This document shows positions 3,463 through 21,798 of a stretch of 64,000 bases of DNA, piece after piece (the stretch's first letter is position 1; every line of letters begins with the position of its first letter). The DNA is taken from contig JAKULF010000010.1 in the NCBI GenBank assembly GCA_022661535.1, positions 2,542,001-2,606,000 of the forward strand. Reading direction: 5' to 3'. Below the pieces are notes generated by a model. It was not told the DNA's origin. It was given only the letters and a program-made list of their open reading frames with translations, and did no database searches. The DNA comes from Eutypa lata (lineage: Eukaryota; Ascomycota; Sordariomycetes; Xylariales; Diatrypaceae). A program made the position numbers and the translations under genes.

Positions 3463-5813
3463 TTAACCTAGACTACCTAGACGACGCTCGTCACAGGTCT
3501 GCGATTTCCTAGCAGGGTGTAACGGCATGTCCATGATAAAGTGTCGCAGAGGGTTGAACTCATCTACTACCTGGGATACCATCTGAGAGACGAAGTGGTT
3601 CCGCAAGTCATGGTACGAGGCCATGATGTCCAGCTCCTCCAGCGTGTGCTCTTCAGGGGTACCTTCACTAGCATCGAAAGACGTCCAGGGGTTCTCGTTG
3701 CATTCACAAGTCGCCCAGTCGCCCTCATCCTCCGAGCTGAACTTCGGAGGAGGTGGCAGGGTCCCCTCGTTGATGTACGCTCTGACGTGTCCGATTGTGC
3801 AGGCCGAGATGCAAGAGATGGTACAGTGCCCGTCTGCGACCTGTTCCACGATGCTTGCGTTCGAGAACTTGCGCGTCATCTTGAGAGCGGCGTGAAGGGG
3901 GGTCACGGGGTCGCGGCGGTTAGACAGGAAGAGAAGGGGGAAGTCGGTGTCGATAGGAGTCGGCTTATGCGATGGGTGGTCATCCCATCTCATCGGAGGG
4001 TCTTTGGTCTCAATTTCCCAGCCGTTGCAGCCAAGGTTTATTCCCATCCACTGAAGTTTAAGTTAGCGGGAGGTTGATCTCTAGTTCGACGAGGGATTAC
4101 TAACGCCGTCTGCGAACCAAGAGTAGGAAGCCATCTTCTCGAATAGCTCTCCCAGTGCTGGGACATCTTCGTTTAACTAGGTAGTAGTTTGTTAGAATTA
4201 CTATGTGTGGAATAAATCAAAACACGGAATGGTTCCTTACTTTATAGCGCTTGTCACTGCACATCACCGTGGCCTGCGCGTCGGTTGGCCACATAGGTAG
4301 CTCGATGTCATGACAGAGCATGGGTATGACTGGACGCCCTGTGACTTGGTCCAGACGACCCTCTAGGATCACATCTAGGAAATTTGCTATTCCAGAAAAC
4401 GCAGTTATGGGTGCGTACAAAGAAGAAAACACGATCATTTTCACATCGCTAGCGGTTATCAAGACCGGTAGGTTCGCATCCAGCAAAGGTGATATCGCGA
4501 TTGCAGGCTGTTTCTGAAGTTGATCCATAAGGGCATAAAATCGATCTCGAACGTCTTCGACTTCATCGCCAGGGCGGAATAGTTTGCAGCTCGGCCCTGC
4601 TTCGTGGCAGCCGACGAAGAACTGATCCCATATCGCATCAGTGTCGATTAGGCTATCGACCCAAGTGGGCCCAACATAATGGTCCGCGTCGACAACACCA
4701 TCCAATATGACACGGCCAACTTTATCAGGAAACATAGCGGCGAATGTTGCTCCTAGTAAAGTCCCGTAGCTGAAGCCCCAGTAGACAAGTTTGCCCTTCG
4801 TGCTACGAGTAGAATCTACACCAGATTGTTCATCACGAGCTGATGTCTCATCGACCGAAGGCTCCCGTTTGGGCTGTGATTGTAGAAACTCCGATGTTTC
4901 TCTCCATTCGTCCCACGCGTTGATGATTGAAAGCATATCGCGAGCAACGTTTGCGGTGTTAGAATAACGGAATATGCTGTTTTCACCCTCATAGTCATCA
5001 ACCTTCTTACACAACTTCCCCAGTGCTCTAGCTCGTGAGTCGATCTTACTCAAAGCAACATTACTAGAGTTAATGAGTCCGACATCATGTCCAGACATGA
5101 TCCAGCTCAGCCGATTTATCAGGGCGATGTTTTTCCCATTAAGTCCCTGGGGATCATCGGGCGCTGCAAAGCAATTGGCAGAGGGTGTCGTAGCTCCGAC
5201 ACCCCTCGGATCGAACCCAATGACATCGTGATGATTGCCAATTACGTTCTGGATCAACCGGCCGCCTTGTAGCGCAAAGCTAACACCACTTCCACCTGGA
5301 CCACCTGGATTCAAGAGCATAGGTGACTCCGAAAAAGATGCAGGATCTCTACTGCGATTTTCCCCAGGTACCATCAACAAGGCCAGGTGGACTTTCGGGT
5401 TATCGGCCGATTCATTCAATGGGCGATGATAGTCCATTGGAACCGTGAGCCGAGCACATTGGTACGGATAACCACAGGGGTGCCACACAAGGTGCTCGCT
5501 TGGGATTATCTACGTCGAGAATCGCTTTAGTCATATTCGTTGTTTCATCAACTAAACAGGGTATCACTGTGAGACTCACATTGTCCCAATCGGTCTCGGA
5601 TGCCGTAACACTATCATCTCTAGATCTATAGCTGAGAGTGCCATGAAAGAAGGTCCCGCCATATCGCCCTAACATCCATATGCTAAGAGCTAAGACAGCT
5701 ATCTTCCATAGAAACCCTCGATTGTTCCCTCTCTGTAAAGAATGAGATGATACCGACTCGGCGCTCGGCCGCTTCTCCGTAGTAGACTCTGTCACTGGAT
5801 TATGGCCTGCCAT
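3463..5813 (-). CDS. Membrane-anchored S33 / TAP-like serine peptidase
   Basis: Four exons on the minus strand: 5580-5813, 4241-5509, 4105-4176 and 3463-4050, all joined in phase 0, giving about 720 residues. The three introns (5510-5579, 4177-4240, 4051-4104) are GT-AG; the last has a clear CTAAC branch site. The protein starts with a short cytoplasmic tail and one hydrophobic anchor (about residues 33-52). An alpha/beta-hydrolase follows, with an oxyanion-type LNPGGPGGSG motif and nucleophile GFSYG (Ser near 325). A TAP-like C-terminal domain carries RDPVTP (Asp near 572) and ADGHC (His near 600), completing the triad. Family members remove N-terminal di/tripeptides or related substrates; the actual substrate here is unknown. 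It lies about 6 kb from the RiPP precursor, so a trimming role is possible but unproven. Confidence 0.85.
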
Positions 5814-6774
5814 CTTCTAGTCGTTGTGGATACTTGGTTGCAGTCAGGTGAAGTTAATCTTGAGGCGCATGTCGAGTGAACTTCTTGTTCATTAATGGGG
5901 CTGGGCTGAGAAAGAGGGGCAGGTGTAATGGGGCGCAGCCCTAATCCGACATGGCGATCTGCTTGGCGATCATTTAGGCAGATGAAACATTATTAATCAG
6001 TGTAACCTTTCCCGCCGGGTTGTATAATCGGGTAGCTATAATTCACTGCCGGTTTTCCTTAGTTAAGTACATTTATGCGCCAGCTATCTATCCTGCTAAC
6101 TGAGTTACTCACAGATCGACTTTATAAAGTTGTGATGAGATATAGTGGTTTATTAAAGGGGTTGGGTTAGCGGTTAGAGGTAGTTCTAGGATAATTGTAG
6201 TTACATAGGTTGTCTGCCCATACACCCCTATTTGTAACAACGTCTATAATATTTGTCAAGTCATTAAAGATTGTTTACTTCCTTTTCTAGTCCGAGATAA
6301 TCTGCTGTGTATTTATTTGCTACGTTTATCCAATGCTACCAGAAGTCACGCAGTACCGTTGAAAGGACTACGCATAACGTACGGATTGCAGTGCCTCGTT
6401 CCATTAGCCAATAATAAGCCTTACATGTTGAGGGCTATGGTCGCGTGGTCTCTTGAAGTTATGCACTCAGCCGGGTTCCGTAATCCTTTGATCAACGACT
6501 ATCTTGGCCCTATCTAACTATAATAGGTAGGTTAATCAAGTACACCATCCCCAATTAAGCATGATGTCACTTTATGTAATCAACCACTCCAAGTCATAAA
6601 CTCAATAGCAACCTCACGGCCTAGAGTAAAAACGCTCGGAAGGACATCTAGCCATCTCTATCCCAAGCATTTTAGACCCTACTAAAGATGCTTGCATTAT
6701 GGCGGTGGTCAAAAGCTACTATACACACAACACCACACACCTAAGCTAGCGAACTGAACCAATAGGGGGCAAGG
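5814..6774. other. Divergent intergenic region
   Basis: Separates the minus-strand peptidase from the plus-strand gene beginning at 6775, so it probably holds both promoters. A 66-codon frame at 6317-6517 has no recognisable domain and was not called. Confidence 0.45.
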
Positions 6775-12264: not shown

Positions 12265-12858
12265 TCACCAGAGCCAAATGTCATCGCTGTCCTTCTCAAG
12301 CTGACCGCGCTTCTGAAGTTCGGCGCGCTTCTTCCAAAGCCAGATGTTATCGGCATCTTTGTCCTTCTTCCAGAGCCAGACATCATCACTGTCCTTCCCA
12401 AGCTCGGCTTTCTTCCAAAGCCAAACGTTATCACTATCCATCTCGAGCTTTCCCTTCTTCCACAACCAAACGTCGTCGGAATCCGAGTCCCTCTTCCAAA
12501 GCCAGATGTTGTCAGCATCCTTGTCCTTCTTCCAGAGCCAGACATCGTCACTGTCCTTCTGGAGCTCGCCCTTCTTCCAGAGCCAAACGTCATCGGAATC
12601 CTTGTCCTTCTTCCAAAGCCAGACGTCGTCAGAGTCCTTGTCCTTCTTCCACAGCCAGACATCATCGCTGTCCTTCTCGGGCTGTCGGACTTCTACATCC
12701 CCTGCTTCGTAGTTTAGTCACTGCTCTTTCCGAGATTAAGTTTCTTCTCTATGCAACGCCTTGTGGAATTTTCACTTACTAGTAACGTCTCCAACCGGAG
12801 AGGCAGAGGCAAAAGCGAGGATCAATGGCGCCACGAAGGCGAGTTGTTTGAACTGCAT
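12265..12858 (-). CDS. Secreted repeat precursor peptide with ten WLW cores (candidate RiPP)
   Basis: Two exons, 12780-12858 and 12265-12701. The intron 12702-12779 (GTAAGT...GCAG, 78 bp) joins in phase 1 and gives 171 residues. Residues 1-20 (MQFKQLAFVAPLILAFASAS) are a textbook secretion signal. After a short leader, ten copies of D(S/A)D(D/N)(V/I)WLW follow. Each except the last is followed by KK or KR, the type of dibasic site used by the Golgi protease Kex2. Spacers are DK, DS, GELQK, GKLEM, AELGK and one longer one. Counts are six DSDDVWLW, two DADNIWLW, one DSDNVWLW and one DSDDIWLW. The last copy ends at Trp directly before TGA. This layout matches precursors of fungal dikaritin RiPPs such as ustiloxin, phomopsin and asperipin. 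A UstYa-family gene starts 839 bp away on the opposite strand. The product has not been shown and no function should be assumed; a plain Kex2-processed secreted repeat protein is the alternative. Confidence 0.88.
12268..12672 (-). repeat. Tandem core-peptide repeats (10 copies, 36-66 nt spacing)
   Basis: The coding repeats run from the first GAC-AGC-GAT core (12672) to the last TGG before the stop. The leucine codon between the two invariant TGG codons differs among copies (CTG, CTT, CTC, TTG). The V/I, S/A and D/N positions also vary while W-L-W is fixed. That pattern of synonymous drift around a fixed motif suggests selection on the peptide rather than a fresh DNA expansion. Confidence 0.9.
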
Positions 12859-13697: not shown

Positions 13698-16040
13698 ATG
13701 GCAATGTTAGAAAAGACTACCACACCAGCGTATTCACGTGTCTCGGACGATGAGTCTTCTCAGTCTGCCACCGAGTCAGATGGCTTCATATACGGAGGTT
13801 ATCAGGCCAAGAAGACTTCTCGTAGAAAGAAGATCTTGATTGCACTTGTGGGGTTCTCGGTTTTCGTGGCATACTCTGCCCTCCTTACCACAGCTACATC
13901 AATGTGGTGGAAGAAGGAAAGGTTACACGGCGCTAATGTTGTTGACAGTAAGTTCCACACCAAGGTCCATTCATGTCCCATTAGCACTGCTGACTCCCTC
14001 TTTAGCTCCTATAAGACCGTACATAAAAGTGAGTAATATCTAGGGTCATTGCTAGCTTCACGGCTTGTTTCGATAGCAAGCCACTTAGAGAAGCTGTTAA
14101 GTTGTTTAGAATGAGACAATACTGACTCTTGATGCCCATAGTACGAGCCTACATTCTTTGATCATACGGAGACGTCCAAAGATTATAAGCTCGTCGGAAA
14201 GCCAAGTGAGGAGCTGGATAAAAACTGGAGCAACATAATGCAATACTTCTACGCCGAAATCCCCGTAGAGTATATGGAGAAGCTCGGGCGCACGAAAGAT
14301 GGCATTCAGCTGCCCAACGGAAACTACCTCGCCAACTATGCATTCATTCACCAGCTGCACTGCTTGGTATGTACCTTTTCCCGGCACCCCAATTTCTGCG
14401 TTGAAACAGAACCTGTTCAGAGCTAATGAATGCAACAAGTGTCGCAACCAATATGCCCTTGTATTTGCTCTGCTATAGCTCTAGAGAAGAAAAGAGGAAA
14501 GAAAGCATCTAGGACCTGAAGGGGGGCGCTCCCACCCTTTATAGGGCTCTGTGGAGCTACTCCACCACCTAGACCAGGGGGTCTGCTATCGTGACACACC
14601 CTCTCTTCTTTGACGGCAGGCACGGAAGACTATACACGGAGAGCAGGCAACTATTTACACTTTTTTATATTTGCGTCGACGACCTATCGTCGTCGACGAG
14701 ACCTAAGGAAAGATCTAAAGAATGGTCGTCGATACAGCCGACGACACCCTCCATTTCGGGCTAAGCGGCGGCACCCTCCACTGTTTGGGCGCCGTCTACA
14801 CCGCTTGATAGTGCTCGTCGATCGACTGTCGATCTGTGACGACGACGACGAGCTTTGCCCAAGGGTCTTGACCCTCTTAGGTGCGTCGGCTGTATCGATT
14901 CGTCGAGCCCCTTTTTGCCAAGGGGAATAGCGCTCTCCACTGTGGATGACGCTATTCCCAATCCTGATCCGGCCGCGTGTGGGCTCAGGATCTTCCACCC
15001 TCCAGGAGCCTTTGCCCCTCATCATTAAGCGCCCCCTCTCTTGGAGCGCTACTACCACCATAGCTGTCGGATGGGACATGGCCTTTGTCCCCTTGCTATA
15101 CAAGCAGTTGCTCCCGAACCGCCTACTATGGCGCCGGCAGAAGCGGGCTAACAAATCCGCGTTGCTAAAGACCTTATTAAGGCCCTGGTGGTCTTTGGAT
15201 GTATAAGGGTGGAAGGGCTTGTCGGCTCGACGATCGACGACTCGGTCGTCGAGCCTAGCTGGTCAAAGGACCAGCTCGTCGATTGGCGACCAGCTATAGA
15301 GAAAGCCAGCCGCCTTGCTGCTTTACTAGAGCGCCGATGAGGTCGACGCTCTAGGAGAGTAGCAGAGCAGGGCTTGCGACAGCGGAAGTTGGCACGGGTA
15401 TAGAAACTCCGAGTCCATGCGGACCCGGGCTCATAACTGTCGCAACCAATATGCCCTTGTATTTGCTCTGCTATAGCTCTAGAGAAGAAAAGAGGAAAGA
15501 AAGCATCTAGGACCTGAAGGGGGGCGCTCCCACCCTTTATAGGGCTCTGTGGAGCTACTCCACCACCTAGACCAGGGGGTCTGCTATCGTGACAACAAGA
15601 AACGCCTTCACCAATCCTACTTCCAGGACCACTACTTCCCCAACCTGACCGAGGATGAGAAGGAACTACAGCTAGAGCACAACCGTAAGTTTGCCTTCCC
15701 CTCGGCTGTGTGCCAGCAAAACTGACTTGTTATGCCAGTGCATTGCCTGCAAATGCTCATCGAGGGTATCATGTGCAAAGCCGATGAGACACCTCTCACC
15801 ATGATATGGTTCAACGAGAGCATTCTGCCTGGAGGTAACCGAACCATCGCCCACGAATGCGTGAACTGGGAATTACTTCTGGAGGGCATGGAGAAGAATA
15901 AAGTGGATCCCTTCACACCGGGGCTACTTGTTCACCCCAAGTTTGGCCCTGTAGTCCCTGATGGTAGACAAACAGTGTTAGATAATAGAATAGGCTACGT
16001 CAAGTTTGCTACGCCGTTGGACAGGGACCAGTGGCCCTAA
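13698..16040 (+). CDS. UstYa-family (DUF3328) oxidase-type protein, gene split by an LTR element
   Basis: Five exons: 13698-13947, 14006-14028, 14142-14366, 15600-15684 and 15739-16040. Phases are consistent and give about 294 residues. Layout: a cytoplasmic Ser-rich tail, a basic stretch (KTSRRKK) and one membrane segment (about 46-68). A luminal domain follows, with both diagnostic HxxHC motifs: HQLHC (161-165) and HNLHC (193-197, the second split by intron 4). UstYa/UstYb proteins are required for oxidative macrocyclisation of dikaritin RiPPs and related peptides in the secretory pathway. The divergent repeat precursor at 12265-12858 is the obvious substrate. Intron 3 (14367-15599) is 1233 bp because a 1155-bp LTR element sits inside it; without the element it would be 78 bp. 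The coding frame is intact, but splicing efficiency is uncertain. Confidence 0.87.
14440..14596 (-). repeat. LTR (3' LTR in element orientation)
   Basis: 157 bp, by eye identical to the copy at 15438-15594. It starts TGTCGCAACC and ends CTATCGTGACA on the plus strand. Read on the minus strand it contains a TATAAAGGG box. Confidence 0.9.
14597..14611 (-). other. Polypurine tract
   Basis: On the minus strand this reads AAAGAAGAGAGGGTG, immediately before the 3' LTR. This is the expected position and composition for the plus-strand primer of an LTR element. Confidence 0.7.
15421..15437 (-). other. Primer-binding site (initiator tRNA-Met half-molecule)
   Basis: Directly inside the 5' LTR the minus strand reads GTTATGAGCCCGGG. 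Its complement (GGGCTCATAAC) matches the anticodon arm of initiator tRNA-Met through the CAU anticodon, ending at about nucleotide 39. Priming by a cleaved 5' half of this tRNA is known for Drosophila copia and relatives. This sets the element type and orientation. Confidence 0.75.
15438..15594 (-). repeat. LTR (5' LTR in element orientation)
   Basis: 157 bp, by eye identical to the copy at 14440-14596. It is followed by the second ACAAG target duplication at 15595-15599. Confidence 0.9.
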
Positions 16041-19553: not shown

Positions 19554-20741
19554 TCAAGGCCATGCACCATTACTTCCCTTCAGCCCCGCAGCGTATGCTG
19601 CCGAGTAATTCGTGCCAATGTGCCTGCCCTTGAGGGCCCAGACGACCCAGCTCCACGGCTTCATCGAGCCCATCTGCCCGGTGCCGCGGTCCCGCCCGAT
19701 CGTCAGGCCGATCATGACCTTGTTAGCGTCAAACTTGTACTCCTCGGCCACCTTGCCCGTCTGCAGGTACGCGTCCAGCTGCTTCATAAAGTGTCGTAGC
19801 TGGGGTTCCGAGTTGGCCGCCTGCGACGTCTGCAGGTTCCCCGCGTCGCCGAGCACGAAGACATTATCGTAGCCCGGCGCGCGCAGGTACTTGTCCTGGC
19901 GCAGCTGGCCGGAGTCGTCCCTCATGCTCTCCGGCGCGAACTCGGTGTTCGGGACGACGCCGTAGGTCGGGATGACTAGGTCCGCCCTGATGGTCTGGGT
20001 GGTGCCGTCGGTCTTGGTGAGCTCGAGCGTCTTGTTCTTCTTCTGCTGCTGCTGTTCGCCGTCCGCGGTGCCGCCGGTGATGCGCGCGCCCCCGACGAAC
20101 TTGACGCCGAGCTTCTCGAGCTCGTGCTTCGCCGTCTTCCGGACGCTCTCCATGATCCGGGATTCAAGCGGGAGGGAGTCTGTCGACACGATGGTGATGT
20201 TCTTCTTCCCGTCCTTGGCGAACTCCGAGCCCAGCTCGCCGGCGAACTCAACGCCCGTCACGCCGGCGCCGGCCACCACGATCGACTTGGCGGCCTTGAT
20301 GTCCTGCTGCAGCCGGGCGATCGCGGCCCGCGTCTGCTGCGATGTGTCAAGGTCTTTCCAAGGCATGTTCTCTCTGTACCGCGAGCCCGTGGCGATCACC
20401 ACCGTGTGGTAGTCGATCGTGCGAGCCCCGCCGTCGTTTAGTGCGACGGTGACGGAGTTGGTGGCTGGGTCTAGGGCCTGGGCCTTGCCGAGGACGAACT
20501 CGAACTTGTCCTTGGGGTATTTGGCAAACTCCTTCGCGATGGAGAATAAGTACTTCTCTTCCGGGATCAGCGCCGGGGCGGCGATGAAGCGGACTGATGC
20601 TAGTTTCCAGTAGAACTCCTCGTTCGGCGAGACAAGCACGACCCGGATATCGCTGTGTTTAGATGCTGTCCTGCTCAGGAGGTAGTGTGCTAATGGTATG
20701 CCCACTAGGCCGGCACCAAGAACTACTATGGTCTTTGTCAT
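19554..20741 (-). CDS. AMID/AIF-like FAD-dependent oxidoreductase, 395 aa
   Basis: Single exon. An N-terminal FAD-binding Rossmann motif (VVLGAGLVGIPLA, residues 6-18), ATGS near 115 and a second NAD(P)H-binding motif (VVAGAGVTGVEFAGEL, about 155-170) are present. So is the FAD-contacting VFVLGDAG near 295. This is the pyridine nucleotide-disulphide oxidoreductase fold of AIF/AMID/FSP1-type NAD(P)H oxidoreductases. A hydrophobic, Trp-containing C-terminus (PWSWVVWALKG) may associate with membrane. There is no clear mitochondrial presequence. Strong GC bias at third positions supports coding. It lies 3.5 kb beyond the UstYa gene; any link to the peptide pathway is speculative. Confidence 0.9.
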   Translation of the reverse strand: MTKTIVVLGAGLVGIPLAHYLLSRTASKHSDIRVVLVSPNEEFYWKLASVRFIAAPALIPEEKYLFSIAKEFAKYPKDKFEFVLGKAQALDPATNSVTVALNDGGARTIDYHTVVIATGSRYRENMPWKDLDTSQQTRAAIARLQQDIKAAKSIVVAGAGVTGVEFAGELGSEFAKDGKKNITIVSTDSLPLESRIMESVRKTAKHELEKLGVKFVGGARITGGTADGEQQQQKKNKTLELTKTDGTTQTIRADLVIPTYGVVPNTEFAPESMRDDSGQLRQDKYLRAPGYDNVFVLGDAGNLQTSQAANSEPQLRHFMKQLDAYLQTGKVAEEYKFDANKVMIGLTIGRDRGTGQMGSMKPWSWVVWALKGRHIGTNYSAAYAAGLKGSNGAWP

Positions 20742-21798
20742 GATGGTGATGAGTGAAGAAGGGATAGGAACAAACTACTTAATAGAGTGGCAGGCGAAAC
20801 GACGGTGGTAATTGTTCTCAGATGAGATATTGTTAGAGAAACAGTCGACTGGTTTCTTGGCCCTTGTATACCTTGAATACTAGTTATGATATAGACATAT
20901 AACTTACAAGTTCATTAACATCTCGGCGATTATATAGTCTCTTATACCTAGTGGAACTTATACCTGAAGGAATGAGATAGCGTTAGACATGTTGTCTTCC
21001 GATGACAGAGACTTACAAAGCAGCCTGTTCAGCTTAGAAGAGCCGCTTGGCTTATTAAAGGAATTAGCAATACTAGGGCACTTTTTTCATTTTGGTTTTG
21101 CAATGCTGAGAGAACATGATTCAAAAATGACATTCCTAGATCCTTCATCTTTCCGCTTCGGGCATTTGTCAGGGCGCTTTCGTTCATAAACCCCTAATAC
21201 CATAGCTAGTGGGCGCTGGCTGGCTGGCTAGAGCCAAGCCAACCGGGTTAGGTTTAGTTGTTACCCTTGTAAGCCCGCGCGGTAATTATCTAAGCATCCG
21301 ATTCAAGGCATGTAGTCTAGAAAGAGTAGGTAACCCGCGCTGTAATTAATAAGCGATCTAGACTCCTCTTCCTCCAACCCCTAAATTGTCTTAGACCAGT
21401 TTAATAATTAGGCTTACCTCCAGCCCTGACATTGTTATACAACAAAGGTTGGATTTCGTTGAGGAAGGTTAACCGTTAAACCAAGTGGTCTAGGGTTTCT
21501 TATGAAAGAAAATAAGATGAATGGGTAGATATGTTTTCATAAGTATCGTTATACCTTTAGTCATTTGAAGTCTTTTCTAGTGTGGGAAAAATGACGAGCT
21601 TGATATTTCCACAGCAAGGGCATTGTGACGCAAATGAGAGAAATATCACGTAATAACAGCAATATATTGATTGCTTCCATGTTACTCTTAGTGAACCAAC
21701 TATCCTGCACCTGATACTACACACATTTGACCCGAACTCTCCTAGGCCGCCAACGCGATCGAGCGAGAGAGAGCCCTATCTCAGGGCAAAGGACCCCT
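20742..21798. other. Intergenic region
   Basis: Contains the probable promoter of the oxidoreductase gene (next to 20742). The 66-codon frame at 20989-21189 has no recognisable features and was not called. Confidence 0.4.

Follow-up and report, generated by a model that had tools for sequence, protein, structure and literature searches.

A precursor gene beside a UstYa gene

The stretch of Eutypa lata DNA analysed here (contig JAKULF010000010.1, positions 2,542,001 to 2,606,000; 64,000 nucleotides, in the following called the window) contains on its minus strand, at 12858-12265, a gene for a 171-residue repeat precursor in two exons, with one 78-nt intron and ten cores of the type D-[SA]-D-[DN]-[VI]-W-L-W. 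It lies beside a gene of the UstYa family (PF11807). We conclude that this is a real, conserved precursor with a likely enzyme adjoining it, and that the locus represents a variation on the dikaritin-type system whose chemistry is predicted and whose function may be impaired in this genome. The cores are probably cut out by a Kex2-type protease and oxidatively modified by the UstYa protein, a Trp cross-link being the likeliest modification. More tentatively, the precursors may define a Trp-only family of fungal ribosomally synthesized and post-translationally modified peptides (RiPPs), in which a copper-dependent UstYa enzyme makes an indole cross-link, either between the beta-carbon of V/I and Trp or between two Trp, within D-x-D-x-[V/I]-W-L-W.

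A conserved Trp-containing repeat precursor

The preliminary description of this DNA had placed the repeat precursor at 12265..12858. These coordinates were exact, the gene being on the minus strand, and ten cores were counted in its translation: six DSDDVWLW, two DADNIWLW, one DSDNVWLW and one DSDDIWLW (Table 1). The protein begins with a hydrophobic 12-mer of mean hydropathy 2.6, a signal-peptide trait judged by hydropathy only rather than by a dedicated predictor. The intron (12779-12702) has the standard donor GTAAGT, a branch-like motif TGACTAAAC and the acceptor CAG. At this intron four acceptors leave the WLW frame open (next base 12704, 12701, 12692 or 12689), the choice among which alters leader residues only; for the precursor model the CAG acceptor with 12701 as next base was chosen. 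Of the architecture proposed earlier, the hydrophobic start, the leader and the ten near-identical cores stood, while the KK or KR thought to flank each core was found after nine of the ten, the tenth being followed by the stop codon. On their N-terminal side the cores have no fixed dibasic site. Kex2-processed repeat proteins (KEPs) have been defined by at least three tandem repeats of at least 8 amino acids between KR, KK, RK or RR sites (PMC7329392), and with its ten cores the window precursor falls within this definition.

One might suspect a low-complexity repeat artefact without coding function, as four other frames of the same DNA are open for 131-200 amino acids. An open frame by itself is therefore no proof; the WLW frame is the one that is conserved in 12 other proteins. 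When the residues of exon 2 were shuffled 20,000 times, at most four WLW were obtained compared to the ten observed. In the pairwise comparison of the ten copies synonymous differences (pS 0.95) far exceeded nonsynonymous ones (pN 0.115), which is a sign of selection on the peptide. This synonymous excess, the clean intron and the hydrophobic start all speak against an artefact, and the homologues in other genera together with the codon pattern refute it, such that we regard it as extremely improbable.

A Pfam scan of the precursor returned no pheromone family and one chance match only (a phage tail family, E 6.5). An ascomycete alpha-type pheromone precursor, considered as a candidate, was rejected on this ground. 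An NCBIfam scan of four proteins gave no real match, and no second WLW precursor was found in the 54.5-Mb genome.

The homologue search for core and precursor that had been suggested with the preliminary description was run: the precursor query returned 5 related proteins, and a profile search, in which 7,990 candidates were scored, gave 12 related precursors in all, from several genera. Eleven of them are NCBI records, which come from Xylariaceae sp. FL1272 and FL0255, Xylariomycetidae sp. FL0641, Thyridium curvatum, Biscogniauxia (three records), Camillea tinctor, Xylaria scruposa, Xylaria sp. CBS 124048 and Naviculisporaceae sp. PSN 640. Eight of the 11 belong to the Xylariales; Thyridium belongs to the Thyridiales and Naviculisporaceae to the Sordariales, and FL0641 is named to subclass only.

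All 13 precursors, including that of the window, carry MQx[KR][QKN][LF]A at the start (in P0001 it is preceded by 44 residues and in P0002 by one) and have WLW as their C-terminus. The number of WLW per precursor ranges from 3 to 10 and amounts to 55 in total, the window precursor having the most. Since the cores were gathered by the string WLW, its presence in all 55 is by selection. The conservation of the neighbouring residues does not depend on this selection: all 55 cores have V or I directly before WLW, and D occupies each of the two acidic positions in 54 of 55. No D.D.[VIL] without a following WLW was seen in the 13 precursors. The 42 internal cores are followed by KK (31), KE (4), KR (3) or KT (2), or by no lysine (2, both in P0012).

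Single members show further features. In P0004 the WLW repeats alternate with a second repeat type, GDEWKDEGGPSVIWPAKR, so that one precursor may yield two peptides. P0003 contains a single TMFWAG stretch. For the WLW precursor P0011 there is a precomputed match, PF28562.1, from a Pfam newer than the version used, a family that may correspond to the WLW precursors.

The UstYa gene and the probable recurrence of the pair

The UstYa gene runs divergently from the precursor on the plus strand, its start being 839 bp from the precursor start. A long terminal repeat (LTR) element is inserted in its third intron, and the two sides of the gene were treated separately across this insert. Frame 14142-14426 on the left side scored 41.4 bits for PF11807 at a cut-off of 25. 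Both motifs of the copper-enzyme pattern HxxHC(x)nHxxHC are present; the second one (HNLHC) spans the ordinary intron 15685-15738 at the junction of exons 4 and 5. The membrane helix predicted in exon 1 has a mean hydropathy of 2.3 over 19 residues, again from hydropathy only. In exon 5, 76-84 of 100 residues are identical to seven homologues. With the left part of the protein as query, 24 matches were obtained among 68 candidates. Seven of these matches have both HxxHC motifs (P0017, P0018, P0021, P0026, P0030, P0032 and P0035), 15 have one and 2 have none, many of the records being short pieces. With exon 3 as query a single place was found in the genome, adjoining the only WLW precursor found there, and no second UstYa gene of this type was detected; the UstYa family overall has 37 exon matches in the genome.

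Among solved structures none related to the UstYa homologue P0017 was found (one chance match, E 0.83). Likewise, the collections genome_contigs and viral_contigs contained no relatives of P0017 (15 and 2 pattern matches, respectively, of which none was confirmed), which is unsurprising since these collections include no fungi. The homologue P0030 of Karstenula rhodostoma (Pleosporales, Dothideomycetes) agrees with the window protein in 60 of 67 residues of exon 3, compared to 57-61 of 75 for the Xylaria homologues, and is slightly closer in exon 5 (window 15735-16040), with 84 of 100 residues compared to 81-83. This closeness could be explained by horizontal transfer or by the source fungus's own placement.

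Two further genomes probably contain the same pairing of precursor and UstYa gene. The Xylaria scruposa records are F4680DRAFT_445704 for the precursor and F4680DRAFT_445705 for the UstYa homologue, each placed on a contig of 894,332 bases; for Xylaria sp. CBS 124048 they are GGR50DRAFT_690495 (precursor) and GGR50DRAFT_690496 (UstYa homologue), each placed on a contig of 858,724 bases. It is the consecutive numbers together with the equal contig sizes that point to adjacency. The objection raised at the outset, that homologues might never lie next to UstYa genes, was not borne out as far as these data reach: the pair is seen directly in the window and is probable, from the record numbers, in the two Xylaria genomes.

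As a control, 30 UstYa match loci of the same genome (L003-L032) were covered by a crude scan of about 1.5 kb on each side. A repeat precursor was seen at one of them, L003, which shows that such a neighbourhood is not automatic. The L003 precursor (L003 1-370; G000:C2, from 3455575) contains six Tyr cores, E-[VI]-D-Y-x-x-L-G, before KR, and the best UstYa match of the genome follows about 1.1 kb after it. It differs from the window precursor by its Tyr core, its KR sites and the lack of Trp in its repeats.

The probable recurrence of the pair and the control both bear on the possibility that the cores are released as a linear, unmodified secreted signalling peptide like the ascomycete pheromones, the UstYa neighbour serving something else. 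Such a peptide would be compatible with the free C-terminal Trp of the last core and with the similar Trp content that a survey reports for repeats with (20.5%) and without (24.5%) UstYa neighbours (PMC7329392). However, the probable pairing in two further genomes, the single repeat precursor near 30 UstYa loci and the lack of a pheromone family match in Pfam argue against it, and pheromone-type precursors in that survey stand without UstYa neighbours, with three exceptions (PMC7329392). We consider a linear product quite improbable.

Relation to known systems

Dikaritins are the products of Kex2-processed repeat proteins that are cyclised by UstYa homologues, and five have been named: ustiloxin, phomopsin, asperipin-2a, epichloecyclin and victorin (PMC10512285). 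The window locus shares with them a KEP-type precursor with a predicted signal peptide and repeated cores between dibasic sites, as well as a UstYa (DUF3328) neighbour, which here carries the LTR element in intron 3. The acidic residues before an aromatic and branched segment are reminiscent of EDYxI, the core found in ustiloxin and phomopsin (PMC6339444). As for these two compounds, there is a tyrosinase gene some genes away, which in the case of the window is about 15 kb off and a candidate member. Unlike the dikaritins, the window family has no Tyr, two Trp per core and V/I before the aromatics instead of after them; the window locus in addition has its last core at the stop codon, mostly KK sites and one UstYa gene. 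In ustiloxin, phomopsin and asperipin-2a the core contains Tyr and is cyclised through it (PMC7329392). Tyr is a frequent rather than a defining trait, being reported in 65.6% of the repeats with DUF3328 neighbours and absent from 34.4% (PMC7329392). In our 13 precursors none of the 55 cores contains it.

The same survey covers 7,878 Kex2-repeat proteins, 22% of which have DUF3328 neighbours; W is given for 20.5% of the repeats with such neighbours, and type P-3 is described as W with P (Umemura 2020, PMC7329392). Trp alone is therefore not new in a Kex2-repeat precursor with a UstYa neighbour. Like the window locus, type P-3 has Trp-containing repeats beside DUF3328 genes, whereas its W is accompanied by P and the 8-residue cores of the window family have no Pro; the genera named for P-3, Fonsecaea, Cladophialophora, Galerina, Psilocybe and Coprinellus, do not occur among those of the precursor family (PMC7329392). 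The earlier suggestion of a new RiPP family thus has to be narrowed. A conserved D-x-D-x-[V/I]-W-L-W family exists, while Trp repeats beside UstYa already form a known class (PMC7329392).

A literature search with six core strings of the family returned no relevant paper and two unrelated ones. WLW is absent from the main text of PMC7329392 and of PMC6339444. Among the titles and abstract beginnings listed for dikaritin, UstYa, DUF3328 and Xylariales no WLW core appeared; an unlabelled entry in a table of the 2020 survey is possible, supplements being outside this scope. In a survey of Hypoxylaceae and Xylaria hypoxylon the RiPP clusters described are ustiloxin-like only (PMC8403587).

Proposed product and competing explanations

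For an enzyme of the DUF3328 family, which is implicated in macrocyclisation, the HxxHC pair has been described as a binuclear copper site in a membrane-bound dimer, facing the organelle lumen (PMC12435403). By this copper-site model, cleavage of the precursor by a Kex2-type protease, trimming, and oxidation by the UstYa enzyme would be expected. The precursor would enter the secretory pathway, and Kex2-type and trimming proteases would release peptides ending in Trp. In a secretory organelle the UstYa protein, a predicted membrane-bound copper enzyme, would modify their V/I-W-L-W end. The likeliest bond would connect the beta-carbon of V/I with the indole three residues on, or one indole with the other. 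The acidic residues would probably serve as recognition element, by analogy with EDYxI.

A tertiary beta-carbon, which V/I would provide here, is also present in the Ile of ustiloxin and phomopsin. In the plant peptide moroidin a Trp is bonded to an aliphatic beta-carbon, and the spacing of this Leu-Trp bond is three residues, the same as from V/I to the last Trp here. Moroidin represents the plant BURP-domain cyclopeptides, whose copper enzymes with four planar histidines have been likened to DUF3328 (PMC12435403). Enzyme family and organism are unrelated to ours, and the BURP system serves as chemical precedent only. If the proposed cross-link is formed, the family would be a fungal counterpart, via an unrelated enzyme, of Trp-linked plant peptides. 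Reported dikaritins are few, and an indole bond would widen the known chemistry of the UstYa family. With its two Trp, the strict V/I and the adjoining UstYa gene, the family would provide a compact system for probing the bonds that UstYa copper enzymes make.

A number of points weigh against enzymatic cross-linking of the cores. KK, the commonest site here, is a weaker Kex2 site than KR. The KEP survey counts KK as a Kex2 site (PMC7329392). Both internal WLW cores of P0012 have no adjacent dibasic site, so that another protease may be involved. Of the 11 precursor records from NCBI, only two had a UstYa match from the same organism; as the UstYa search admits proteins of up to about 290 amino acids, which is near the full length of the enzyme, the other nine records are uninformative. 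Six named organisms gave a UstYa match without a precursor match. Such small precursor genes are often left unannotated. The tyrosinase makes little obvious sense for a Tyr-less core, and neither a methyltransferase nor an S41 peptidase was present among the stretches scanned with Pfam, a subset of the frames comprising 23 from the window and 7 from L036, the locus of the tyrosinase gene. Within the window there is no second UstYa match. Finally, proteins of the UstYa family also hydroxylate, halogenate, isomerise and desaturate (PMC12435403, PMC10512285), which makes cross-linking one of several outcomes.

The UstYa protein could thus modify the core without closing a ring, such that V/I or Leu would be hydroxylated, halogenated or desaturated, or Trp oxidised. 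The first three reactions are reported for the family in other pathways (PMC12435403, PMC10512285), and the single UstYa gene of the window would fit a ring-free modification as well. However, the function described for the family on Kex2-repeat substrates is chiefly cyclisation (PMC7329392, PMC10512285), and the invariant V/I beside two Trp would suit a bond between side chains. A ring-free product therefore seems rather unlikely to us.

The LTR element gives rise to a further objection. It is 1,155 bp long, ends 5 bases before UstYa exon 4 and brings intron 3 to a length of 1,233 bp, and its identical LTRs indicate a recent insertion. In this genome the chief reservation about function concerns the splicing of this long intron, and the element may lower or abolish UstYa activity. 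The locus could accordingly be decaying, with an intact precursor, a UstYa gene that is disabled or poorly spliced and no modified product. The position of the insert directly before exon 4, its identical LTRs with the 5-bp target duplication, the growth of the intron and the lack of another copy of this UstYa type among the matches in the genome are all in line with decay. Yet the insert is intronic, the frames of the UstYa exon pieces are still open and highly identical to those of the homologues, and all ten cores of the precursor are intact. Decay is in our view a possible state of the locus, though not the one we expect. As to the element itself, the one long frame tested had no Pfam match, and its middle part, used as a DNA query, matched the genome 57 times, with three of the matches falling in the element itself.

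Table 1. Features of the precursor gene and the UstYa gene (window positions; cores placed from residue numbers of the translated precursor)
Feature	Positions	Strand	Remarks
Precursor exon 1	12780..12858	-	ATG at 12858; predicted signal peptide MQFKQLAFVAPLILAFASAS; leader start
Precursor intron, predicted	12702..12779	-	78 nt, GTAAGT...CAG; from sequence alone
Precursor exon 2	12265..12701	-	open frame; remaining leader, ten cores, TGA at 12267-12265
Core 1	12649..12672	-	DSDDVWLW
Core 2	12613..12636	-	DSDDVWLW
Core 3	12577..12600	-	DSDDVWLW
Core 4	12532..12555	-	DSDDVWLW
Core 5	12496..12519	-	DADNIWLW
Core 6	12460..12483	-	DSDDVWLW
Core 7	12415..12438	-	DSDNVWLW
Core 8	12370..12393	-	DSDDVWLW
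Core 9	12334..12357	-	DADNIWLW
Core 10	12268..12291	-	DSDDIWLW; stop codon immediately after
UstYa-type exon 1, predicted	13698..13947	+	tail and predicted membrane helix ILIALVGFSVFVAYSALLT; N-terminus similar in P0013-P0020
UstYa-type exon 2, predicted	14006..14028	+	23 nt; PIR.YI.YEP kept in homologues
UstYa-type exon 3	14142..14366	+	first HxxHC motif (HQLHC); PF11807 E 2e-10 for frame 14142-14426
LTR element in UstYa intron 3	14440..15594		two 157-bp LTRs (14440-14596, 15438-15594) of identical sequence; flanked on either side by the target duplication ACAAG
UstYa-type exon 4, predicted	15600..15684	+	5 bases right of insert; KRLHQSYF... kept in homologues
UstYa-type exon 5	15739..16040	+	with stop; PF11807 E 7.4e-10 for frame 15726-16040, above cut-off

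Tyrosinase and wider surroundings

The tyrosinase gene (PF00264; G000:C14:2538135-2539048) lies left of the window, about 15.2 kb from the precursor. It corresponds to about 3937-5192 of L036 on the minus strand, where two frames are above the PF00264 cut-off. Tyrosinase is required for ustiloxin and phomopsin, in which it is found 7-8 genes from the precursors (PMC7329392). Tyrosinase exons were matched 23 times in the genome, at about 13 places by our own grouping; with this number, one within 15.2 kb on either side is expected at <1% of loci, an arithmetic done after the fact. The tyrosinase could belong to the cluster; as its proximity was examined after the fact, we treat this as a lead.

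Between the tyrosinase and the precursor, at window 3463-5816 (minus strand) and 6.4 kb beyond the precursor end, lies a gene for a TAP-like alpha/beta hydrolase (Abhydrolase_4 E 1.7e-15, Abhydrolase_1 E 7.6e-14) with a hydrophobic N-terminal stretch. It is perhaps a trimming peptidase, or unrelated. The remaining frames between the two genes have no clear domain. On the far side of the tyrosinase, L037:2779-3909 resembles, by eye, elongation factor Tu. To the right of the UstYa gene, at window 19554-20774 (minus strand), an oxidoreductase dependent on flavin or nicotinamide adenine dinucleotide (FAD/NAD) is encoded (Pyr_redox_2, E 7.6e-34); a protein kinase and an RBR-type ring protein are also found on this side, along with further genes resembling ordinary cell genes.
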